Below, in pieces: positions 3,074-61,861 of a stretch of 63,405 nt of DNA (positions are counted from its first letter, which is position 1; every line of letters begins with the position of its first letter). Origin of the DNA: a virus. Under the pieces are notes generated by a model. That model was not told where the DNA came from. It made no database searches and worked only from the letters and a program-made list of their open reading frames with translations. The position numbers were made by a program, and so were the translations under genes. The DNA lies in IMG/VR virus record IMGVR_UViG_3300032285_003896, positions 1-63,405 of that record; one strand, given 5' to 3'.

Positions 3074-3102
3074 CGAGAATTTTTGAAAATAGCTAAAATA
3101 AA

Positions 3103-3134
3103 TTTTTTTATTTGAAAAATTTGTTATAATTTTA
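3103..3134 (+). promoter_or_regulatory. Promoter: T-tract plus TAATTTTA
   Basis: TTTTTTTA (to 3110), 16 bases, TAATTTTA (3127-3134). It is preceded by the phased boxes and by a GAAAATAGCTAAAATAAA element shared with the promoter at 4615. The following gene starts 23 bases downstream. Confidence 0.75.
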
Positions 3135-9595: not shown

Positions 9596-9695
9596 AGTCA
9601 GGTGGCGGAATTGGTAGACGCAATAGGTAAAAATGCCATACGGATGTTTACCCATCTTATGCAAAGGCTTACAGGTTCGAATCCTGTCCTGACTA
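9596..9695 (+). tRNA. tRNA-Leu-like gene with an enlarged anticodon region
   Basis: Acceptor arms AGTCAGG (9596-9602) and CCTGACT (9688-9694) pair perfectly, the D arm is the leucine-type GCGGAATTGGTAGACGC, and the T arm is ACAGG-TTCGAAT-CCTGT, with A as discriminator and no encoded CCA. The part between D and T arms is about 49 bases, some 17 more than a normal tRNA-Leu. ATAGG/CCCAT (9623-9627, 9651-9655) can form an anticodon stem with one mismatch around a 23-base loop that itself has TAAA/TTTA ends. No standard anticodon loop is visible, so the anticodon is not assigned. Confidence 0.7.
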
Positions 9696-18555: not shown

Positions 18556-18583
18556 AAAAACTTTTGAAAATACTCAAAATAAA

Positions 18584-18615
18584 TTTTTTTATTTGAGAAA
18601 TTTGTTATAATTTTA
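18584..18615 (+). promoter_or_regulatory. Promoter: T-tract plus TAATTTTA
   Basis: TTTTTTTA (to 18591), 16 bases, TAATTTTA (18608-18615). Nearly identical to the promoter at 3103 over about 45 bases, including the ACTATATAACAAATCA initial transcribed region. Confidence 0.75.
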
Positions 18616-19061: not shown

Positions 19062-19073
19062 TCCAAAAATAAA

Positions 19074-19105
19074 TTTTTTTATATCAAAATAAAGTCTTAT
19101 ATTTA
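19074..19105 (+). promoter_or_regulatory. Promoter: T-tract plus TATATTTA
   Basis: TTTTTTTA (to 19081), 16 bases, TATATTTA (19098-19105). No operator-like boxes precede it, so it can be compared with the boxed class. It drives the DUF932 gene and probably the structured region beyond it. Confidence 0.75.
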
Positions 19106-26129: not shown

Positions 26130-26942
26130 TTATTTTGAATAACCATGATCTATAAAAATTTTATATAAATTATTTCCATTATCACTAACCTCAGTTTGTC
26201 TAAATATATTACATCCTTCATAAGATTCGTGATGAGTATGTCTTAATACAGGAAATGTAGACACTCCTCCGCCATTTATCCAGTCATCAAAAGTAGGAAA
26301 ATTAGGTATTGATTCGTGTGTTTCAACTATTCTATCTCTTTTTTTACTAGAAAAATAAGCTGCCATTAATATATCATCTGCCCAAGAATAATACTCTTTT
26401 ACAAAATCAAAAAAATCTTCTTCAAAATAACGTCTTTTATATGATACTGTTTTATAATGCTGAATTATATCTACTCTGATACTTATTTTTTGGGATGTGA
26501 AATAGTAGTCTCTACTATCACCAAAATTAGATGCAAAATTTCCATTTTCGTCTCTAGATCTCATTCCATCATATCCAACAATACCTTCTTGCCATTTATT
26601 TTGATTTTCAATTTGAGTCTTTACCATATCAGGATCATAAACTAGGTCATCATCAACTACAATTATTATAGTTTCAGGATCAGTTATTCTTTGTACTGTT
26701 GGTATTAATTTAGTTGCTGGACCTAAATCTTCTGTTCTAAAAATTTTAATTTTACTGCACTCCTCTAACCATTCAGGAATAATATATTCTTCTCTAGTTA
26801 AATTATTAATATAAGGAATATTAAAATGTATTTCATAATCATCATAATTTTGATTAATTAATGAATTAATACATAATTTTATTCCTTGATCATCTAATAC
26901 TGAAAGCCTTGAAGGTATTGTTGTTAGTGTTACTATTGCCAT
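26130..26942 (-). CDS. GT-A type glycosyltransferase, 270 aa
   Basis: The start IVTLTTIPSRLSVL and TIIIVVDDDLVYDP (DDD at about residues 97-99) show a GT-A nucleotide-sugar fold with a metal-binding acidic motif. ADDILMAAYFSSKKR later fits an acceptor-side helix. It lies five bases from its neighbour in the glycosyltransferase operon. Sugar and acceptor are unknown. Confidence 0.75.
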   Translation of the reverse strand: MAIVTLTTIPSRLSVLDDQGIKLCINSLINQNYDDYEIHFNIPYINNLTREEYIIPEWLEECSKIKIFRTEDLGPATKLIPTVQRITDPETIIIVVDDDLVYDPDMVKTQIENQNKWQEGIVGYDGMRSRDENGNFASNFGDSRDYYFTSQKISIRVDIIQHYKTVSYKRRYFEEDFFDFVKEYYSWADDILMAAYFSSKKRDRIVETHESIPNFPTFDDWINGGGVSTFPVLRHTHHESYEGCNIFRQTEVSDNGNNLYKIFIDHGYSK

Positions 26943-26951
26943 ATTTTTTAA

Positions 26952-27875
26952 TTAATTGTAATTCCAAAGTTGACCTCTACTTATATAAAAAGATTTTAGT
27001 CTTTCATAATTTATTTTTATAAATTCCTCTTTACTTTCTAATGTACAAATAAAATCTCCTTGACACCAATTCCAAAATCTATCTTCTGGAAATGTTAGTA
27101 TAGAAAACCCTCTATTTACTTCAAAGGTAAGTGATGCTACATCTATATCTAATATAGAATGAACTATAGATTGAATGGGTTCATTATTTACTGCCCAAAT
27201 TCCATGACGGCCTAAAATAAATAAATCTTCACGGTTATTTACTAATATTTCGTAGACTATATTATTAAAAATATCTAAATAATTTTTTATATTATTTTTA
27301 TTTTTAAAAGTATAGCAAAAAAAGTTGCCATCATTAGAATATAATCTAGGATTTAATTGTTGATAATTATTTTCTTTAATAATTATATTAGCTAAATCAC
27401 CAAATCTATCTGTAAAATCATAACCTCCATTTCCTATTACCATATCTTTATTTAAAGAACTGAAAGAATTTTTTATAGAGTCATATATTAACTGATCAGC
27501 TTTACATTCAATATCGCAATTGCAAACAAAAATAGCATCATACTTTTCTATTTCTGGTAAGCAGAATACAAATCTCCATATAGAACCAGGTATTACCCAA
27601 TCTTTTTCAAGTACATATGTAGCGTATTCTTTTTCATTTAATGTTTTTATTGGTAATTTTTCGTACTCAATAGACCACGGATAATCCTTTCTTAATTCAT
27701 CAATATCTTTTATTATTATATTTTTGTAACTTTCTAATGATTTAAATATAGGATCTTCTTTCATATCCGTCATAATAAGGACATCAAATAAAGAATAACT
27801 TTCTATATTTTTTAAAATACTATAAACTATACGATTTCTAAATGTTGGACCTATTGTATAATATACTAGAAGCAT
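26952..27875 (-). CDS. Putative glycosyltransferase, 307 aa
   Basis: DVLIMTDMKED and YDAIFVCNCDIE (about residues 113-123, a DxE/DxD-like position) fit a GT-A fold. RKDYPWS and the surrounding helix align with ARKNHPWS in the gene at 27892, so the two are diverged paralogues. The weak acidic motif leaves the catalytic state open. Very AT-rich, like its neighbours. Confidence 0.6.
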   Translation of the reverse strand: MLLVYYTIGPTFRNRIVYSILKNIESYSLFDVLIMTDMKEDPIFKSLESYKNIIIKDIDELRKDYPWSIEYEKLPIKTLNEKEYATYVLEKDWVIPGSIWRFVFCLPEIEKYDAIFVCNCDIECKADQLIYDSIKNSFSSLNKDMVIGNGGYDFTDRFGDLANIIIKENNYQQLNPRLYSNDGNFFCYTFKNKNNIKNYLDIFNNIVYEILVNNREDLFILGRHGIWAVNNEPIQSIVHSILDIDVASLTFEVNRGFSILTFPEDRFWNWCQGDFICTLESKEEFIKINYERLKSFYISRGQLWNYN

Positions 27876-27891
27876 TATTTATTTTTTTAAT

Positions 27892-28908
27892 TTATATATT
27901 TTTATGTTTAATAATAATATTATTATTTTCTGTTATGTTATACGTAGCATGTGTTGCATGATTATTATAATAATTTATTAAAGCATCTTTATTCTTTTTG
28001 ATATATTCTTCAGTTGTAAACACTGTTTCATTTTTATTAGGAGGTAAAAGATTCCAATTAGGAAGCATATTAGAATAATACCATGAATCATGCGGTGTTG
28101 ACATATGAAATCCTAATGTATCATCTTCCCAATAGTGAAGACGATTTTTTATTTTATAATTAAAATTAATTTCAAAAATTCTTAATAAGTATCCAACTAT
28201 ATCATCTATTTTAGTATACCCATGATTTTTTTGAAAAAAATGATTTTTAATATGTATGTTATCAGAAAAATTATAACAGTAAGTTATATAATCAAAAATT
28301 TCGTAAAATAATTTTATATCTTCTTTATTTTTAAAACTAAAATCACAAGTAAATAATTCACAATACCAATAATCTTCTGGAATGGTTAACTGTGGAAATT
28401 TACTTTTTAATAGATTTCCTATATGACCAAATATCGGTGATGAGTATGTTTCATCCATAGGACCTATATGAGGAATACCAAGTACGCCCTCAGGAATTTT
28501 TTTAAAAAAGTTATCTATAATTTTTTGTTGGTTGGTTATAAAAACATTATTTCCTACATAACTAAATTTTAAAATATTATTTTCGTACATATATGGAAAC
28601 AAAAATCTCATCGTACAAAAAGGAAGTAGGCTATTTTTTTGTTTATAAAATTGATGAAAATTTTTGGCATATAATTCTGGATCTTTTTCTTTATAATGAA
28701 CTTCAATATCATTAGTACTCCACGGATGATTTTTTCTGGCATCTTCTATATCTATAATAGTTAGAAGATTTTTATAAGGTTCGTATAGTTCATAGTTATC
28801 TACTAAATAGATATAATTATGTGTGGTCTCTTTATTATTTTCTATAAATGGTAGAAACCTAGTTTTAAAATGTACCGATCCAAATACTTGCCTTATAAAT
28901 TTACTCAT
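27892..28908 (-). CDS. Putative glycosyltransferase, paralogue of 26952 gene, 338 aa
   Basis: Shares the xxARKNHPWS block (about 57-64), the spacing to TMRFLFPYMYEN and the general helix order with the 307-residue neighbour. The CNCDIE position is replaced by SYVGNNVFI, so a metal-binding DxD is not visible; it may be an inactive or substrate-binding partner. It overlaps the methyltransferase gene by four bases. Confidence 0.5.
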   Translation of the reverse strand: MSKFIRQVFGSVHFKTRFLPFIENNKETTHNYIYLVDNYELYEPYKNLLTIIDIEDARKNHPWSTNDIEVHYKEKDPELYAKNFHQFYKQKNSLLPFCTMRFLFPYMYENNILKFSYVGNNVFITNQQKIIDNFFKKIPEGVLGIPHIGPMDETYSSPIFGHIGNLLKSKFPQLTIPEDYWYCELFTCDFSFKNKEDIKLFYEIFDYITYCYNFSDNIHIKNHFFQKNHGYTKIDDIVGYLLRIFEINFNYKIKNRLHYWEDDTLGFHMSTPHDSWYYSNMLPNWNLLPPNKNETVFTTEEYIKKNKDALINYYNNHATHATYNITENNNIIIKHKNI

Positions 28909-29603
28909 ATTTGATTTTTTAAAAAGACAGTTTGTCTACCCCATAATACTTTAACATAATTATTTTCAAGTAAATAAGGAGTTAGTAATTTGTCTTTACC
29001 AGCGCTATCTGTATTAAAATCAGTATCATCAATAGAAATAATATGTAAATCTGATAATTTATTTTGAGCAGCTAAAAAAGCTTCTAAATGTCTTTCTGCA
29101 TATTCATGAGTTCCTTTATCCCAGCCATCTAAAAAAAGAAAATCAATTTTTTTATCAAAGTCTTTTAAAAATTGAATACCATCTTGAGGAATACAGATAT
29201 GTAAATTATCTGGAATTGGTTCTTTTATATGATATTGATATTGTTTTTCTAGTTCTGTTTTACAATGTTCATCAATATCTACGGTGTAAACATCAAATCC
29301 TTCTCTAGCCCAAAAATAAGTTGAATGCCCATCTTGACAACACGGAGGTGCATCTTTACTTTCTAAATTAATAGAATTATTATAATAATTAATGCATGAT
29401 TGAGTTAACTCTCTTCTTGTTGATCCAATTTCTACTACAACTTTAGCATCGATTATTTTTAATAGTTCAATTGTTTTTGTTATCCATGGAGCTGGGTAAT
29501 TTCTAATGCTATTTTCTTCATGAGTTAAAACATCATGAGTCCAATAATAAGTGTTTTTTTTAAAACTATCACATGCTTTTAAAACTTCAATAAATTTATT
29601 CAT
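28905..29603 (-). CDS. SAM-dependent methyltransferase, 232 aa
   Basis: KVVVEIGSTRRELTQ is motif I, DVYTVDIDEHCKTE is motif II with the acidic residue for SAM ribose, and KIDFLFLDGWDKG is motif IV, as in class I and FkbM/CmcI-like sugar methyltransferases. It sits between glycosyltransferase genes, so methylation of the glycan is likely. The start overlaps none; the stop overlaps the next gene by four bases. Confidence 0.8.
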   Translation of the reverse strand: MNKFIEVLKACDSFKKNTYYWTHDVLTHEENSIRNYPAPWITKTIELLKIIDAKVVVEIGSTRRELTQSCINYYNNSINLESKDAPPCCQDGHSTYFWAREGFDVYTVDIDEHCKTELEKQYQYHIKEPIPDNLHICIPQDGIQFLKDFDKKIDFLFLDGWDKGTHEYAERHLEAFLAAQNKLSDLHIISIDDTDFNTDSAGKDKLLTPYLLENNYVKVLWGRQTVFLKNQI

Positions 29604-29606
29604 ATA

Positions 29607-30878
29607 CTATATTATTTCTTCTTTACGTTCACACCACCCTCTTTCATTACTATATCCCCATAGTACTAATCTAGATGGTTTTTTATTTACTAAAAATATT
29701 TCTTCAAAATCAAAATAACCTGATTCAGTACTTAATACTCTTTTTATATAATCTTTTTCTAAATTTCTTACATATATAGGTTTACCTGCTTCATCATCAA
29801 ATGCCATATGAATAAATTCATAATCATCAAAAGGAAAATCAGTTTTATATAATTTTACTAAATGATAAAATGATTGTGTAAAAGATAATTCCCATAAACT
29901 GTCATCTTTGATAAGAGGATTAGGAGGGTACTTATTATCTAAAGTATATTGCTGAACTGATTTATTTTTAAAATGAAAACCTGCGTATTTTTCGTAGTCT
30001 CGTAAACTTCTAACTGTTCCTAAATCATATCCTGTTAAGTCTATATTTGGATCTTCTTCTGTTCCTAATAAAACTCTTATTTTTTTTCTAGCATATTCTT
30101 GTTTATTCCACCAATCTACTCCTAATTTAGAATCATCATCCCATTTTAACATACCTGATCTTTCTTCACGCATAGTAGAATGCCACACTACTAATTTATG
30201 TGGATGAAATAAATCATACCCATGAGTATATGATCTTACTGTTAAATTTAATTCTTCACCTGAAAAATAGATATCTGGATCGTGTCTTATTTCTTTAGCC
30301 CACTCTGATCTTGCAAAACAAAAATGCCCTGATAAAAATCTACTCATTGGAGGTTCCGTCATAGTCTCCCATCCTGTAAGTAAGCCTGGTCTAATGAATA
30401 TCGTTCCATGAGGATAGAAGCAAGCAAAATGCTGTTGCCACGGCTCCATTGTGCGGCCACCAGGATCATCAAATGGTGTATATAATGGTAGATAGGCTGC
30501 AAGAATTGGTTTGTAACCACGAGCCTCTAAACCACTATGCATATCTATTAAAGTCTCATCCCAATCTTTAGCAAATCTATGATGTGAATCTAATTGACAA
30601 ATGTAATCTTCATCTGTTAATAATTTTTCGTTTATAATGGCTCTTGCCCAAGGAAGTCCTTGAGCTTCATTATATAAACACTCATAAATTTTAAATCGAG
30701 TATCTCCTTCAAATTCAGATAAATCATCAAATTTATCATCAGGATGATATTGTCTACAAATACCAAAATGTATTCTTTTTGGATATTTAGCATTTGCTAA
30801 TGCGTCTTTAATAGTAGGAATTAATTCTGGATCTCTGTAAGCCGGTAAATGTACTAGTATTGTTTTTTTCTTATTCAT
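29607..30878 (-). CDS. GlcNAc-transferase-like glycosyltransferase (PF11397 type), 423 aa
   Basis: VHLPAYRDPELIPTIKDAL at the start and ICQLDSHHRFAKDWDETL (DSHH at about 97-100) are the hallmarks of the GlcNAc-transferase family that includes Dictyostelium Skp1 hydroxyproline GlcNAc-transferase. FSGEELNLTVRSYTHGYDLF is the second conserved block. These enzymes act on polypeptide acceptors, which matters because a Thr/Ser/Pro-repeat fibre is encoded just upstream. Paralogue of the next gene, which it overlaps by eight bases. Confidence 0.85.
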   Translation of the reverse strand: MNKKKTILVHLPAYRDPELIPTIKDALANAKYPKRIHFGICRQYHPDDKFDDLSEFEGDTRFKIYECLYNEAQGLPWARAIINEKLLTDEDYICQLDSHHRFAKDWDETLIDMHSGLEARGYKPILAAYLPLYTPFDDPGGRTMEPWQQHFACFYPHGTIFIRPGLLTGWETMTEPPMSRFLSGHFCFARSEWAKEIRHDPDIYFSGEELNLTVRSYTHGYDLFHPHKLVVWHSTMREERSGMLKWDDDSKLGVDWWNKQEYARKKIRVLLGTEEDPNIDLTGYDLGTVRSLRDYEKYAGFHFKNKSVQQYTLDNKYPPNPLIKDDSLWELSFTQSFYHLVKLYKTDFPFDDYEFIHMAFDDEAGKPIYVRNLEKDYIKRVLSTESGYFDFEEIFLVNKKPSRLVLWGYSNERGWCERKEEII

Positions 30879-32127
30879 ATTCTATAACTTGATCTATTCT
30901 TTCTAACCAACCTTTTGATTCACTATGAGGCCAAACTCTCCAAGAATACGGTTGTTTATTATCTTCGTAATCTCTCCATATGTGTATAAACTGATCATTT
31001 TTATCTTGACTAAATAAAGATATAATTTCACTTTTATCGCAATCTTTTCTATATACGTCATTACCATTTTCATCTAAAAAGGCTACAGCAAATGAATCAT
31101 AATCAGATTCAGTAAGAGATCCTTTATATACATCTATACAATGTTTTATTCTTGATGCTAAACCTGATTCATAATCTCCTTTTATTGGAGGAAAATTATT
31201 TTGTATAGTCTCAACATGAATTTGTCTAGTACTAAATTTTAATCCGGCATATTTTTCAAAATCTTCTAAAGATCTTGTAGTTCCAAAATAATTTGGAGCT
31301 AATGCTCTTCTAGTGCATGAAGAACAACCTGGATCCATTCCCATTAATTTTCTATATCTTGCATAAGAAGCATCATCTCTTTGTTTCCAATCTCCTGAAT
31401 CATCCCAATGTTTTTTCTTTCCTTCTCTTGTATATTCATGCCAAATTACAGGTTTATGAGGAGAAAAAAGATCATACCCAAATGTATAAGCTCTAGCGGC
31501 TAAAGAACTTTCCTCACCATGAAAATATAATTCAGGATCATAAGGAACTTCTATAGGAAACGATCCTAAAGTAAAAATAAAATGTGCAGAGATAAATCTT
31601 GACGGGAAAGGTTCTTTTAAATCTTCCCAATTATCTACGTGATGAGGAGCTAAAAATATTGCACCTCCAGGCATAAACCTATCTATATTCAATCCCCAAA
31701 CTTCATTAACCCTACCTTTTGGATCTTTATCTGGATAATATCCTGGTATATAAGCTGATAATAAAGGTTTTTCGTGGCCTTTACATTGTAAATAGTGCAA
31801 ATAATCCTTTATTGTAATATCCCAATCTTTACTAAATCTATGATGAGAATCTAATTGTAAATAATATTTTTCTCCATTATAATTTTTTTGGATTTCTGAC
31901 CTCATCCAGCAAACTCCTTTAGCTTCTTTATAAGGAATATCTAATATAATAAATCTTGGATCATCTTTATATAAATCTAAAGTATCCCAAGTATCTTGTT
32001 CTGCATGTTGCCAACCAATACAAATAGTTAAATCTTGTGGATTAGCACAATTCTCTAATAAGTTATTTATAGTAGGGAGTAATTCAGGGTCCCTATAGGA
32101 GGCTATCGAAACAAAAATTTTTGACAT
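30871..32127 (-). CDS. GlcNAc-transferase-like glycosyltransferase (PF11397 type), 418 aa
   Basis: VSIASYRDPELLPTINNLL and YLQLDSHHRFSKDWDITI (DSHH about 93-96), with FHGEESSLAARAYTFGYDLF, match the same family as the gene at 29607. The two are about equal in length and collinear. It is the first gene of the island, with a promoter box ending only four bases before its ATG, so the mRNA is probably leaderless. The duplicated pair may add successive sugars or different acceptor sites. Confidence 0.85.
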   Translation of the reverse strand: MSKIFVSIASYRDPELLPTINNLLENCANPQDLTICIGWQHAEQDTWDTLDLYKDDPRFIILDIPYKEAKGVCWMRSEIQKNYNGEKYYLQLDSHHRFSKDWDITIKDYLHYLQCKGHEKPLLSAYIPGYYPDKDPKGRVNEVWGLNIDRFMPGGAIFLAPHHVDNWEDLKEPFPSRFISAHFIFTLGSFPIEVPYDPELYFHGEESSLAARAYTFGYDLFSPHKPVIWHEYTREGKKKHWDDSGDWKQRDDASYARYRKLMGMDPGCSSCTRRALAPNYFGTTRSLEDFEKYAGLKFSTRQIHVETIQNNFPPIKGDYESGLASRIKHCIDVYKGSLTESDYDSFAVAFLDENGNDVYRKDCDKSEIISLFSQDKNDQFIHIWRDYEDNKQPYSWRVWPHSESKGWLERIDQVIEYE

Positions 32128-32131
32128 AACT

Positions 32132-32163
32132 TAAATATACTAAATTAATTTGATATAAAAAAA
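32132..32163 (-). promoter_or_regulatory. Promoter of the glycosyltransferase island
   Basis: On the minus strand TTTTTTTA (32163-32156) is followed after 16 bases by TATATTTA (32139-32132), the exact early-type architecture. The ATG is at 32127, four bases after the box, where the start of transcription is expected. Confidence 0.75.
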
Positions 32164-32169
32164 TTTATT

Positions 32170-35100
32170 TTAAGGAGCTGGGCAATACTCAAAATACTGT
32201 CCTTTAGCACCAAAATCTATTACTGTAGCTCTTACATATAAAGTAAGATTTCCAGTTATTGTAATGCTAGATCCAAGTCCTGGTCCAGCACTAAATGGTT
32301 TACCACATCCTGGTGTAGCTGCAGCAGCGCAACTGGAATTCAATCCATAATTGTAATATACTCCATTATCTGAAGAATTACTACCTCCAAAATATAGAGT
32401 ATCTCCGTATTTTAAACCGGTAATTGTTCCTAATAAAGTACATGTTACGGTATTAAGCGATCCACCTAATTGAGTTACAGTAGGACCTGCTGTAGTATAA
32501 TAGAATTTCCATGAATCTGTTGGAGTAGGACTTGTTATTGCTACATCTTGGTTAGCATATACCGTTACAGTATATCTAGGAGATGATGGAGTTATACTAG
32601 GAGTCTTAGTTATACTAGGCGTTTTACTTACAGTAGGAGTAGGTGATGGAGCGACAGGACAATCAGTATAATTTCCTGATCCATCAATGTTAGCAGTGAA
32701 TGCTAATTGAGTACCTGTAGTTATTACATAAGATGCATAACAAGATGTTCCGCCATTTGCAGGACATGTTGTAGTACCACTAACAGAATCAAATTGTACT
32801 GGTGCTGATGTAACATCATGAAGTAGTCTAAAATATACTAATGTACCACTTGGTACAGATAATCCTGTCATTGATCTACATATAGTATCGTTATTAACAG
32901 TAGGAAGCATACTGGACCAAGGACCATTTACGCCGACGGTAGAATATTGAAGTTTAAATGCATCCGATGTTGGTGTAGCTCCATTAGTAGCTTTTATAGC
33001 TGGAGTTACAATTGGAGGACTCGCTGAAATACTTGGAGTTACACTAGGCGTCTTAGATGGAGTTGGCGTTGGTGATGGACATACAGCTGTTGATGTTATA
33101 GTTCCATTTCCATCTATTTGGCCATATATACTACCGTCTGAATAATACCCAATAGGAGCGTAATTAGCTGATGATAGAGGATGTGTAAGCACAGTATATA
33201 ATGTATCTCCTACTCCAAAAGTTGAACTATATGAATAATAAGTTGTTCTAGATGCTATACACGCAGAATAAGGAGACGATGAACTATATCCTAAACTGAA
33301 TGAGTATATTGTTGGCTCTGATTGAGAAGGAGACAAAGATATACTAGGAGTAGGAGTAGGCGATTTAGTAACTGTTATACTAGGAGTCTTAGTTAAACTA
33401 GGTGTTACTGATGGAGTTCTACTAATCGTTATACTAGGAGTCTTAGTTAAACTAGGTGTTACTGATGGTGTTTTAGTAACACTAGGCGTAGCTGTTAAAC
33501 TTGGTGTTGTAGTTATACTAGGTGTTAAACTAGGAGTTATACTAATACTAGGAGTGACACTAGGAGTAGCTGATATCGATGGAATAGTTGTACAATCAAC
33601 AACGTCTACTATTATACCATTTACGTTTACCTGTACTGCCCAAGTACTTGATCCTTTAGTAAATAAAAACCAACCATTAGAACCTATAGTAGGAGCCCAA
33701 TTAGTTGATAATCCTAAATTAGTATAAAGTTGCTGTAGTGTAGTAGGTATAGTGTAAACAGGACTTTGATAAATAGTACCATTATTGGCTGATCCTACAC
33801 GACAGGCAGTTGTATAATCTATGAAATCTGTATTAGATATAACAAACGCAGTCGGTGGAGTAGATATACTAGGAGTTACTGTTGGTGTTATACTAGGTGT
33901 AATTGTTAAACTTGGTGTTATACTAGGTGTAATTGTTAAACTTGGAGTTATAGATACGCTAGGTGTTATACTAGGCGTAGCTGTTAAACTAGGTGTTTTA
34001 GTAATACTAGGTGTTATAGTTACGCTAGGTGTTATAGATACGCTAGGTGTTAAACTAGGGGTAGCTGTTATACTAGGCGTTGCTGTTAAACTAGGTGTTA
34101 TAGATATACTAGGTGATACACTAGCTGCCGGTGAAGAACTAGGTGTTATAGATACACTAGGGGTAGCTGTTATACTAGGCGTTATAGATACACTAGGTGT
34201 TAAACTAGGCGTTTTAGTAATACTAGGTGTTATAGTTACACTAGGCGTTATAGATACACTAGGTGTTAAACTGGGGGTAGCTGTTATACTAGGCGTTATA
34301 GATACACTAGGTGTTAAACTAGGAGTAGATGTTATACTAGGTGTTAAACTAGGGGTAGCTGTTATACTAGGTGTAGCTGTTAAACTAGGTGTTATAGATA
34401 CACTAGGTGTTATACTAGCTCCTGGTGAAGAACTAGGTGTAGCTGTTATGCTTGGTGTCGCTGTAATACTAGGCGTAGCTGTAATACTAGGCGTAGCTGT
34501 TAAACTAGGTGTAGTTGTAATACTAGGTGTAGCTGTTATGCTAGGTGTAGCTGTAATACTAGGAGTTAAACTAGGAGTAGCTGTTAAAGTAGGTGTAGCT
34601 GTAATACTAGGTGTTTTAGTAATACTAGGTGTTATAGTTACGCTAGGTGTTATAGATACACTAGGTGTTATGCTAGGTGTTGTAGTTATGCTTGGCGTAG
34701 CTGTTATGCTTGGCGTAGCTGTTAAACTAGGTGTAGTTGTAATACTAGGTGTGGCTGTTAAACTAGGTGTAGCTGTTATGCTTGGCGTAGCTGTTAAACT
34801 AGGTGTAGTTGTAATACTAGGTGTTAAACTAGGTGTGGCGGTAATACTAGGTGTAGCTGTTAAACTTGGAGTTATACTAGGAGTACGACTTGGAGTTTTA
34901 CTAATAGATATACTAGGTGTTATACTTGGAGTAGCCGATAAACTAGGAGTTAAACTAGGTGTTATAGATATACTAGGTGTTATACTTGGAGTGGGACTAG
35001 GGCTTGGAGCGACTACATATTGTACTGAAAAATTACCATAATCGTAAGGATCAGTATCAACTTCTTTAACATAATTTGTATCATCTGGAACAGTTAGTGG

Positions 35101-52163: not shown

Positions 52164-52487
52164 CTAATTTAATTTATTTTTTAGATAATATAGCATACTA
52201 TCTATTGAGTGCATAGGTATTCCTGTTACTCCACCATCAAAATCTTTATTTTTTCCAATCATATCATAAGATTTTGCGATATATAAGATCTCTAAAATCC
52301 TATCTTCTTTATCTGTTATTAATACCATAGGATATTCTTCAATACCAAGTAAAGATTCTAGTGAATCACATTGGTTTGGATTATCTTCACAATTAGTATG
52401 TGTATAAAATATACTATTATCGGACAATTCTTTTTTTAATTTATTGCATCTATTGCAATTTTCTAATGTTATCAATTGTATTTTCAT
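52164..52487 (-). CDS. Glutaredoxin/thioredoxin-like protein, 107 aa
   Basis: The start MKIQLITLENCNRCNKLKKE has a CxxC active site (C11, C14) after the first strand, and EEYPMVLITD supplies the cis-Pro region, as in glutaredoxins. In T4 a glutaredoxin (nrdC) is the electron donor for ribonucleotide reductase. The start overlaps the upstream stop (ATGA). Confidence 0.8.
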   Translation of the reverse strand: MKIQLITLENCNRCNKLKKELSDNSIFYTHTNCEDNPNQCDSLESLLGIEEYPMVLITDKEDRILEILYIAKSYDMIGKNKDFDGGVTGIPMHSIDSMLYYLKNKLN

Positions 52488-52654
52488 AATTGATCTTCTT
52501 TAAATTCAATATCTATTTTTTGCATTATGTAATACCAAGCTTTTTTCTCTTCATTATCCATGCTTTCATAATTCATAGATAGATATATATATAAAGCTTG
52601 TATTTGATCATCTGTTAATTTACCATCATCTATTTGTAAATCTTCTAGTTTCAT
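52484..52654 (-). CDS. Small acidic protein, 56 aa
   Basis: A helical, acidic frame (KLEDLQIDDGKLTDDQIQAL) that is the first gene after the structured RNA region of the minus-strand operon. ATGA coupling to the glutaredoxin-like gene supports coding. No family recognised. Confidence 0.5.
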   Translation of the reverse strand: MKLEDLQIDDGKLTDDQIQALYIYLSMNYESMDNEEKKAWYYIMQKIDIEFKEDQL

Positions 52655-52666
52655 AATAGGCTAGTT

Positions 52667-52685
52667 TAAAGGTATTTTACCTTTA
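52667..52685 (-). other. Perfect 8-bp hairpin in the minus-strand leader
   Basis: TAAAGGTA and TACCTTTA (plus-strand order) pair around a three-base loop. On the minus strand it lies between the structured RNA and the first gene, without a U-run, so it could be a processing site for separating the RNA from the mRNA. Confidence 0.5.
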
Positions 52686-52726
52686 TTTAGAGTGTAAGTG
52701 ACTTTGTTTTTTATCGATAACTTATA

Positions 52727-52915
52727 TTTAGAATCCTTTAGCGGACTAAACCGTCGGATATGGCCGATATTATTCTAAAATTTCTTTATCAACTATTTTT
52801 ATATACCTGAAGCATTATGCTTAGTCTTAGCTCCTGGTAGCCGTGTTGTTTACTTAGTCTAAAATCTCACTCATGGAATTTAACCAAGCTATGGTATAGA
52901 TCCTAAGTACACGGC
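52727..52915 (-). ncRNA. Structured RNA candidate at the 5' end of the leftward operon
   Basis: Four helices can be drawn. GCCGTGT (52840-52846) with ACACGGC (52909-52915) continues after a five-base bulge into ACTTAG/CTAAGT (52852-52857, 52903-52908). AAGCAT/ATGCTT forms a hairpin at 52810-52822. A three-way element has TTTAGAAT/ATTCTAAA (52727-52734, 52772-52779) enclosing TTTAG/CTAAA (loop CGGA) and TCGG/CCGA. On the minus strand the RNA begins near the expected transcript start (about 52923), five or so bases before the first helix. No coding frame is convincing here. Confidence 0.6.
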
Positions 52916-52927
52916 ATTAGTATAAAT

Positions 52928-52959
52928 TAAATATACAACAAATAATTGAAACAAAAAAA
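52928..52959 (-). promoter_or_regulatory. Leftward promoter: T-tract plus TATATTTA
   Basis: Minus strand TTTTTTTG (52959-52952), 16 bases, TATATTTA (52935-52928). It would start the structured RNA and the glutaredoxin-HD operon. It is back to back with the rightward primase promoter. Confidence 0.75.
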
Positions 52960-52975
52960 TTTATTTTAATAAATA

Positions 52976-53007
52976 TTTTTTTATGTCAAATTAATGTCTT
53001 ATATTAG
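52976..53007 (+). promoter_or_regulatory. Rightward promoter of the primase gene
   Basis: TTTTTTTA (to 52983), 16 bases, TATATTAG (53000-53007). The primase ATG at 53012 is four bases after the box, so the mRNA is probably leaderless. An in-frame ATG at 52994 falls inside this promoter and is not used. Confidence 0.7.
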
Positions 53008-53011
53008 TATA

Positions 53012-53941
53012 ATGGATAATGAACTTTTAGTTTTAGGCTTATTAGAATCTGTTCTTGGTAAAGGAAAAGGATCAAAGACCACTATGGACTATGCTTTTTA
53101 TTGCCCTGTATGTAAGCATAAAAATCCTAAACTTATTGTTAATATTAAATCTGGACAATATAATTGTTGGACATGCCACCCAGCCACTAAAGGTAAAACT
53201 CCTGTATCATTATTGAAAAAAATAGATGCTCCAAATGATAGGATAATAGAAATGAAGAGTTATTTTAAAGGAGATAATACTAGAATTGATACAGTAAAGC
53301 CTGATAAAGTAACCCTACCAGAAGAATTTATTTCGCTAACCACTTCAGATAAATCACTAGAAACTAGACATGCTATAGCTTATTTACATAAGAGAGGAAT
53401 AACAGATAGCGATATTAAAAAGTATGGAATAGGATATTGTAAAACAGGAAGATATAGAAATAGGATCATAGTACCATCATACGACAAATCAGGAATTCTA
53501 AATTATTTTATTGCTAGATCATTTGAGAAAGATCCAGGACGTAAATATGATGCTCCTACTTGTAATAAGACTGAAATTATTGGTTTTGAGTATTTTATTA
53601 ATTGGTCTATTCCTATTATACTTTGCGAAGGCATATTTGATGCCATTTCAATTAAAAGAAATGCTATTCCTCTATTTGGAAAGACTATTCCAAAATCACT
53701 AATGATGAAATTAGTAGAATCTGAAGTAAAAACTATATATTTAGCATTAGATAAAGATGCTTTAAAAGAAGCTCTTGAATATTCACAAAATCTTTTGAAC
53801 CTCGGTAAAGAAGTTTACCTAATTGAACTAGAAGGGAAAGATCCTTCTGATCTTGGTTTTAGTAATATGACTAAGTTACTACACAAAGCAAAGCCACTAT
53901 CTTTTGGTGATCTACTTCTTAAAAAAATCCAACTACTATGA
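53012..53941 (+). CDS. DNA primase (zinc finger plus TOPRIM), 309 aa
   Basis: CPVCKHKNPK (C31, C34) and NCWTC (C52, C55) form the template-binding zinc finger. LHKRGITDSDIKKYGIGYCK and RIIVPSYDKSGILNYFIAR resemble the DnaG core, and PIILCEGIFDAIS with ALDKDA is the TOPRIM metal site. Length is close to T4 gp61 (342 residues). It synthesises RNA primers for lagging-strand replication. The longer in-frame start at 52994 is rejected because it lies in the promoter. Confidence 0.88.
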   Translation: MDNELLVLGLLESVLGKGKGSKTTMDYAFYCPVCKHKNPKLIVNIKSGQYNCWTCHPATKGKTPVSLLKKIDAPNDRIIEMKSYFKGDNTRIDTVKPDKVTLPEEFISLTTSDKSLETRHAIAYLHKRGITDSDIKKYGIGYCKTGRYRNRIIVPSYDKSGILNYFIARSFEKDPGRKYDAPTCNKTEIIGFEYFINWSIPIILCEGIFDAISIKRNAIPLFGKTIPKSLMMKLVESEVKTIYLALDKDALKEALEYSQNLLNLGKEVYLIELEGKDPSDLGFSNMTKLLHKAKPLSFGDLLLKKIQLL

Positions 53942-54746: not shown

Positions 54747-55532
54747 ATGATTAAGCTACTAGATATATTAAAAGAGGTTAAATCTCGAAAAAAAGCCATT
54801 ATTATGGCTGGAAGTGCCGGAGCTGGTAAATCGACATTTGTTAAACAAATTGAACCAGACCTAAAAAGTGCGCACTGGAATGAATTAAATGCAGATAAAT
54901 ACATTGAAGACAAAGATAGTCCAATGTATAATAATTTAGGTAAAGCTTCTGCATATATAGAGAAACAAGAACTACCCCAAACTATAAATAAAGGTCAAAA
55001 TTTCCTTTATGATACTACTGCTACCAATGTATCTAAGATACAAAATATAGCAGACTCAGGTTATGATACCAAGATGGTTATGGTATATACAAGTCCGATC
55101 GTTAGTTTCCTTCGTAACTTTAAAAGAGAAAGAAAAGTACCTACTGTAGGAGTTCTTTCTAGTTGGAATAATGTATATAAGAATTTATCTACTTATAAAG
55201 ATATGTTTGGAGATAATTTTTACTTAGTTGAAACAGGATTAACACCTGAAGAAGCAAAAATGGTAGAAAAATTTAATCAAGCTTATAATTCAGGAAAATT
55301 AAAAGAATTTTTTGAATCTTTATTAAACTCAGGAGAATTTAAATCAACATTTAGAAAAGATCCAACTAAACAAAAAACTCCTGAAGAAATAGCACAATCA
55401 AAAGCACTAGTAAATAAACAAATAGATATTCTAGCTAATCAATTTGATGATATAGAATCTCAAGTAAAGTCTTTAGGTAGTTATGATATGTCAAATGTTG
55501 TGAGTAAAGTAAAATCATTTATAAAATCATGA
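54747..55532 (+). CDS. P-loop kinase, zeta-toxin-like, 261 aa
   Basis: Walker A is MAGSAGAGKST (about 20-30), ELNADKYIED follows as the acceptor-side block, and FLYDTTATNVSKI is Walker-B-like, as in zeta toxin and related sugar/nucleotide kinases. The N-terminus MIKLLDILKEVKS looks like a capsid-targeting peptide. Zeta toxins phosphorylate UDP-GlcNAc; the substrate here is unknown. It overlaps the next gene by four bases. Confidence 0.75.
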   Translation: MIKLLDILKEVKSRKKAIIMAGSAGAGKSTFVKQIEPDLKSAHWNELNADKYIEDKDSPMYNNLGKASAYIEKQELPQTINKGQNFLYDTTATNVSKIQNIADSGYDTKMVMVYTSPIVSFLRNFKRERKVPTVGVLSSWNNVYKNLSTYKDMFGDNFYLVETGLTPEEAKMVEKFNQAYNSGKLKEFFESLLNSGEFKSTFRKDPTKQKTPEEIAQSKALVNKQIDILANQFDDIESQVKSLGSYDMSNVVSKVKSFIKS

Positions 55533-61814: not shown

Positions 61815-61829
61815 TTTATACAAAATAAA

Positions 61830-61861
61830 TTTTTTTATATCAATTTTTTGTTGTATATTGT
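61830..61861 (+). promoter_or_regulatory. Promoter: T-tract plus TATATTGT
   Basis: TTTTTTTA (to 61837), 16 bases, TATATTGT (61854-61861), a weaker -7 box. It drives the small gene at 61879 and possibly those up to the terminase. Confidence 0.6.

Follow-up and report, generated by a model that had tools for sequence, protein, structure and literature searches.

A conserved structured leader RNA at the head of a baseplate/tail operon in T4-like phages that probably infect Bacteroidota

What is the role of a long, elaborately folded RNA placed directly ahead of genes for phage tail proteins? This question is raised by an IMG/VR virus record (IMGVR_UViG_3300032285_003896; 63,405 bp of virus DNA, analyzed over its whole length and hereafter called the window), in which a structured leader of ~250 nt (52923-52655, minus strand) separates a divergent DnaG-type primase gene from the first gene of a leftward baseplate/tail operon, which it heads. 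To our knowledge, late gene control in Bacteroidota phages has been little explored. The initial annotation had described a structured RNA at the head of this operon, a description that is fully supported by the promoter, the fold and the compensatory changes reported here, and had considered a riboswitch-like leader, a packaging RNA and a host-targeting RNA as possible identities.

The operon contains genes for baseplate wedge proteins (PHROGs 261, 43 and 219) and small genes without assigned function. Its first gene (52484-52654, minus strand), which is conserved beside the RNA, specifies an acidic, helical protein of 56 aa (pI about 4; median net charge -11; three helices predicted, AlphaFold pLDDT 82), for which a known-fold search returned only weak chance matches and no family assignment. 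It overlaps by ATGA with the second gene (52164-52487, minus strand), whose product of 107 aa is glutaredoxin-like (Pfam PF00462, E = 0.0006, just below the curated cut-off). At the right edge of the window, the start of a TerL-like sequence could be recognized by eye. Bacteroidota hosts are characterized by unusual promoters and the lack of Shine-Dalgarno (SD) pairing. An SD signal was detected upstream of 2 of 49 phage genes in comparison with 2.6 expected, A occupied position -3 in 31 of the 49, and the closest cultured phage by primase was Flavobacterium phage immuto (45% identity). Thus, a Bacteroidota host is likely for this T4-like phage. Elsewhere in the window, a protein with a Zeta-toxin-like/AAA kinase domain (54747-55532, plus strand; Pfam PF06414, E = 3e-11) adjoins the replication genes.

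Transcription of the leader and the late operon was assigned to a minus-strand promoter (52930-52967) composed of an A-tract, ATTTTTTT, TTTCAA and TTGTATATT, with TATATT as its -7-like element. By using a matrix derived from 42 relatives, with the window left out, this site scored 47.0 bits, compared with a maximum of 12.2 bits in 20 shuffled 63-kb sequences, which confirmed, with a shift of a few bases, the promoter that had been claimed at 52959-52928 (minus strand). The block AAAATAAATTTTTTT-N-TTTCAA-N-TTGTATATT was common to 46 copies upstream of the leader. Six further sites above 20 bits were found in the window, including the divergent promoter of the primase gene (52968-53005, plus strand; 29.0 bits) and copies at 61822-61859 (plus), 32134-32171 (minus), 19066-19103 (plus), 3095-3132 (plus) and 18576-18613 (plus), with scores of these five ranging from 20.8 to 43.3 bits. 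Since the block recurs at several high-scoring sites and the null scores are far lower, it represents a promoter class of the phage. The minus-strand copy at 32134-32171 belongs to a run of glycosyltransferase-like genes recognized by eye (26130-32127, minus strand), and a promoter variant ending in TTATAATTTTACTAT was observed at 3095, 18576 and, weakly, 4607. Based on the numbering of the F. johnsoniae -7 element (T-12/A-11; PMC6847099), transcription is predicted to start at 52923, 12 nt from the T of TATATT, and helix P1 begins about 9 nt after this position in the window. No terminator-like site was found between the promoter and the first gene (minus strand, 52960-52650). The leader is predicted to constitute the 5' untranslated region of the operon's mRNA.

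The leader architecture includes at least nine helices plus pseudoknots over ~250 nt of the minus strand. In the 5' domain, P1, P1b and P2 close on P3 and are directly followed by P4/P5. The 13-bp bulged helix that had been proposed (52915-52903 with 52857-52840) corresponds to P1 (52915-52909 with 52846-52840) and P1b (52908-52903 with 52857-52852), and it is supported by compensatory changes in nearly every pair. P2 (52900-52897 with 52861-52858), recognized by alignment and covariance model, encloses the P3 hairpin (52866-52894; CCRUAGCUUGG-loop-CCAUGAGYGNG), whose loop (52883-52877) fits the T-loop motif UNNRANU and whose R-Y pair 52892-52869 covaries between A-U and G-C. A leader peptide starting from an AUG within P3 (AUGAGUGAG) was rejected, as indels in the alignment interrupt its reading frame and not every copy has the AUG. 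The P4/P5 hairpin (52804-52839; UACC-A-GGAGC...GCUUC-A-GGUA), previously noted as a hairpin of six to eight pairs, is part of the conserved fold and shows two-sided changes, with pair 52832-52811 occurring in A-U, C-G and G-C forms. The 3' domain consists of P6 with P7 and P8, and likewise retains the three-way element recognized earlier (52793-52713). This element is closed by P6a (52793-52786 with 52720-52713) and P6b (52779-52772 with 52734-52727); within it, P7 (52754-52767; UCGG...CCGA) has 100% of its cells paired, in the forms UCGG/CCGA, UUGG/CCAA, UCGA/UCGA and UCAC/GUGA, and P8 (52742-52753; CGG...CCG) was defined by comparative alignment. A TTTAG/CTAAA hairpin in the three-way element was discarded because it is confined to the clade of the window and not conserved; P8 plus the pseudoknot PK1 take its place in the fold.

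Considered as a single sequence, the fold is moderately unusual (z = -2.54; 1 of 200 shuffles). The comparative evidence was drawn from 40 distinct copies that are less than 93% identical, and compensatory changes in homologous regions, which the initial annotation had proposed as a test, proved abundant in both domains. In the sequence-only alignments, 87.7% of cells pair in the 5' domain and 82.5% in the 3' domain, compared with at most 42% and 56%, respectively, in slid controls; two-sided changes affect 17 of 31 pairs in the former and 17 of 21 in the latter, and the observed covariation score was matched by none of 500 shuffles. With the covariance model, whose alignment leans towards structure, 95.9% of cells pair in the 5' domain and 21 of its 31 pairs show two-sided changes. 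Separate Watson-Crick-to-Watson-Crick changes on the tree number at least 75 in the 5' domain (covariance-model alignment) and at least 65 in the 3' domain (sequence-only alignment). A conservative, phylogeny-aware null test, which replays substitutions along the tree, was also performed. With 70 sequences, the best five of 29,646 column pairs are pairs of the model, two of them at E < 0.05; with 40 sequences, four model pairs reach E < 0.05, most of the remaining model pairs being individually below significance. In addition, helix cells contain more G-U than A-C (128 versus 49, or 91 versus about 49 after removal of one conserved G-U pair, which is kept in 37 of 40 copies), and therefore the leftward strand is the folded one, in agreement with the leftward promoter. 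Among the 40 copies, 54 columns are invariant, and much of this conservation falls at unpaired or core positions. These comparisons argue for a conserved aptamer-like core with covarying helices.

Apart from the T-loop hairpin P3, the features added to the earlier description are two pseudoknots, the second of which is less certain. PK1 joins the strand after P8 (UAAAGG in the window, 52735-52740) to one preceding the start codon (CCUUUA, 52667-52672, 12 nt upstream of this codon), and the two are complementary in all 40 distinct copies. Pairing is kept through different sequence types (UAAAGG/CCUUUA, UAGGG/CCCUA, CAGGG/CCCUG, UAAGGG/CCCUUA, UAGAG/CUCUA and UAUAG/CUAUA), and these six main types require six or more changes on the tree; automatic scoring accepted 38 of 40 copies, compared with at most 29 of 40 in 2000 shuffles of partners among sequences. 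Of 31 copies in which the distance from PK1 to the start codon was measured, 28 fall within 10-19 nt; three copies have 22, 25 and 31 nt, and the distant copy L199 has about 63 nt. Because of this variation, occlusion of the start site cannot be uniform across copies. PK2 would pair GACU in the P5 loop (52823-52826) with AGUC (52700-52703). Across the family, the loop contributes GAC or GAU and the downstream strand GUC or AUC, and 36 of 40 copies are able to form PK2; in L199, the strands are GGU/GCC. This pseudoknot is probable from the alignment and not proven, since it is missing in one clade (L098/L119/L126/L165) and shows few independent changes. The eight-pair hairpin that had been noticed before the first gene corresponds to P9 (52667-52685; UAAAGGU-ACCUUUA), a local, lineage-specific hairpin that is kept in 25 of 40 copies, absent in 15, and competes for the 3' strand of PK1. 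As regards a riboswitch expression platform, PK1 can form in all 40 copies and the competing P9 in 25. An intrinsic attenuator was rejected, as P9 is not followed by a U-run.

The leader was found on about 100 IMG/VR contigs, at a constant place in the loci checked. A primase query returned 80 related contigs, many of which carry it; a search with the T-loop pattern gave 83 stretches (81 real), and a second pattern gave 16 further ones. Matches to a third pattern, based on the 3' domain, were mostly GC-rich chance matches and added at least two whole copies and at least one partial copy, the real new loci among the matches listed being L199, L268 and, partially, L249. The L249 copy (1068-1260) lacks the promoter and P1-P3, and P4 with everything 3' of it directly adjoins the primase start; this reflects either a natural deletion or an assembly error. 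In the loci checked, the gene order was constant (primase, RNA, small acidic gene, glutaredoxin-like gene, phosphohydrolase-like gene), with an extra small gene between the last two in some loci. Nine records, including those of 162, 180 and 183 kb, each contain one significant copy of the RNA, with a further match in one of the nine that is not significant (E = 0.5). In the primase tree, RNA carriers fall on either side of the midpoint root and surround two clades that truly lack the RNA (L022 and L024 are also without it, as truncated contigs rather than true losses), indicating that the RNA is ancestral in this phage group and has been lost at least twice. In the one RNA-less relative examined, the same first gene follows a leader of ~110 nt, and no other copy of the RNA was found in its 174-kb record. 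Hence, the RNA is not essential, as two clades have lost it and the relative examined retains the first gene. An inverted repeat (GTCCTA...TAGGAC) was observed in the short leader of the RNA-less locus L059 (2890-2935), and a similar sequence in the alignment of its clade (L046-L082); this repeat may be an operator, or else a hairpin that took the place of the RNA.

The Rfam search recommended by the initial annotation recovered no known family at the leader: Rfam 15 gave no match at gathering thresholds or, within 52600-53050, at a permissive E <= 10, and no relevant match at E <= 5 for 12 diverse relatives. Similarly, blastn of three different RNA copies against cultured phages gave no match, nothing was found in Flavobacterium phage immuto with the RNA model, and a scan of 84,980 bacterial and archaeal genomes, which covered the T-loop pattern as given, returned five matches, none with the rest of the fold. 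No tRNA or tmRNA was detected by ARAGORN in the window or by Rfam in the leader region. A separate Rfam tRNA match (9596-9695, plus strand; 40.9 bits), not reported by ARAGORN, has tRNA-Leu-like D and T arms and about 28 bases in the anticodon-arm region compared with 7 in the model; it may represent a tRNA with an intron or a decoy tRNA. Some translational riboswitches, such as SAM-II and preQ1, place a pseudoknot near the ribosome site. The leader resembles them in its conserved core, a pseudoknot strand near the start codon and an alternative pairing in some lineages, but it has no SD to sequester, a non-metabolic gene context and no Rfam match. The leader of T4 gene 32 is an autoregulatory pseudoknot that controls translation, and the two share a pseudoknot in a phage mRNA leader; however, the first-gene product here is strongly acidic at a pI of about 4, and it is therefore unlikely to be an RNA-binding autoregulator. 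Autoregulation by this product is further disfavoured by its retention in the RNA-less relative. The T-loop motif also occurs in T-box RNAs, RNase P and tRNA; the likeness, a loop that fits UNNRANU with closing G-C pairs, is a local one at the sequence level, and Rfam found none of these families in the leader region. T-loop RNAs have been reviewed (PMC4810234, PMC4919913). The nearest known kind is represented by the orphan leaders manA and wcaG, which were described from T4-like cyanophages and marine metagenomes as candidates for regulation in cis (PMC2864571). They are likewise structured RNAs of unproven function in potential 5' untranslated regions of T4-like phages and metagenomes, but they precede varied metabolic, chaperone and photosynthesis genes, whereas the leader here precedes one conserved tail operon. 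HK022 putRNA is also structured and likewise heads an operon directly behind a phage promoter, with putL just downstream of its promoter; however, it has about 70 nt and two stem-loops (PMC9378689), in contrast to the ~250 nt, T-loop, three-way element and two pseudoknots of the leader. Thus, with respect to Rfam 15 and the open-access papers covered, the leader is a new RNA family.

As judged from sequence and comparative data, the leader most likely controls the timing of tail-gene expression. Its linkage to one operon, its place after the promoter, the lack of a terminator and the position of PK1 near the start codon argue for control in cis, and we give about even weight to the proposal that it is a new cis-acting RNA gating the late operon, probably at translation initiation via PK1. 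The 5' domain (P1-P5 with the T-loop hairpin) and the 3' domain (P6-P8) would form a compact tertiary fold held by PK2, which would present the 5' strand of PK1 to its partner, which in most copies lies 10-19 nt before the first start codon. Formation of PK1 would either enclose the ribosome landing site of this SD-less mRNA in structure or position it, and initiation would differ where PK1 opens or, in some lineages, gives way to P9. The state may be set by a ligand, by a protein of the phage or the host, by a tRNA-like partner or by folding kinetics alone. Initiation in Flavobacterium is tuned by the mRNA structure that surrounds the start codon (PMC6847099), and opening or closing of PK1 could thus set translation of the first, coupled genes. 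The overlap of the first gene with the glutaredoxin-like gene could allow the effect to be passed on by coupling; on the other hand, tail genes far down the operon may lie out of range of control exerted on the translation of a 56-aa gene.

Several other roles have to be weighed against gating in cis. The 54 invariant columns among 40 copies, largely unpaired or in the core, suggest a binding surface, and the fold is nearly complete ahead of the gene start, as might be expected of a processed or independent RNA that is released from the transcript and acts elsewhere, for instance on a host target or as a scaffold. However, such a trans-acting RNA is unlikely in view of the constant place before the same gene in the loci checked, the single significant copy per record, the end of PK1 near the start codon in most copies, and the failure to find a terminator of its own on the minus strand (52960-52650). 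The packaging and host-targeting RNAs suggested earlier remain unsupported for similar reasons, i.e., no Rfam match, no own terminator, one copy per genome and linkage to one operon. A nascent RNA that binds host RNA polymerase and allows readthrough of the long late operon, like HK022 putRNA, would be consistent with the location directly downstream of the promoter of a long operon, as in putL (PMC9378689), but antitermination of this kind appears improbable: the leader far exceeds the ~70 nt and two stem-loops of putRNA (PMC9378689), a PK1 reaching near the start codon would be superfluous, and the RNA-less relative keeps the same operon start.

The start of P1 about 9 nt after the predicted transcription start in the window would also suit a tight 5' fold that shields the late mRNA from 5'-end-dependent decay; however, a simple hairpin would be enough for this purpose, which the T-loop, PK1, PK2 and the three-way element exceed, and we regard a role as stabilizer as rather doubtful. 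Finally, the palindromes might have arisen by chance in a DNA-level element, such as an origin, a packaging site or an operator, as the region is a divergent intergenic region of a phage. This is very improbable, given the excess of G-U over A-C on the leftward strand, the G-U pair in 37 of 40 copies, the pseudoknots and T-loop as features of RNA, and a position downstream of the promoter.

Among the identities first considered, the riboswitch-like leader is the leading option with regard to its location in cis, conserved core and pseudoknot near the start codon, but the operon it heads is devoted to tail structure. The leader lies in cis in the 5' untranslated region, as in riboswitches, and the genes downstream have no metabolic theme, being baseplate wedge genes and small genes. 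It is conceivable, though on balance unlikely, that it belongs to a new riboswitch-like class, or is an RNA or protein sensor, by which T4-like phages of Bacteroidota, a widespread group, sense the condition of the infected cell and time the production of tails, with a pseudoknot beside the late operon's first start codon opening or closing in response. If the leader does sense something, it would represent a new regulatory RNA class that acts on virus structural genes rather than on metabolism. Being deeply conserved and placed ahead of the tail operon, the RNA provides a testable handle on the switch to late expression in these phages.
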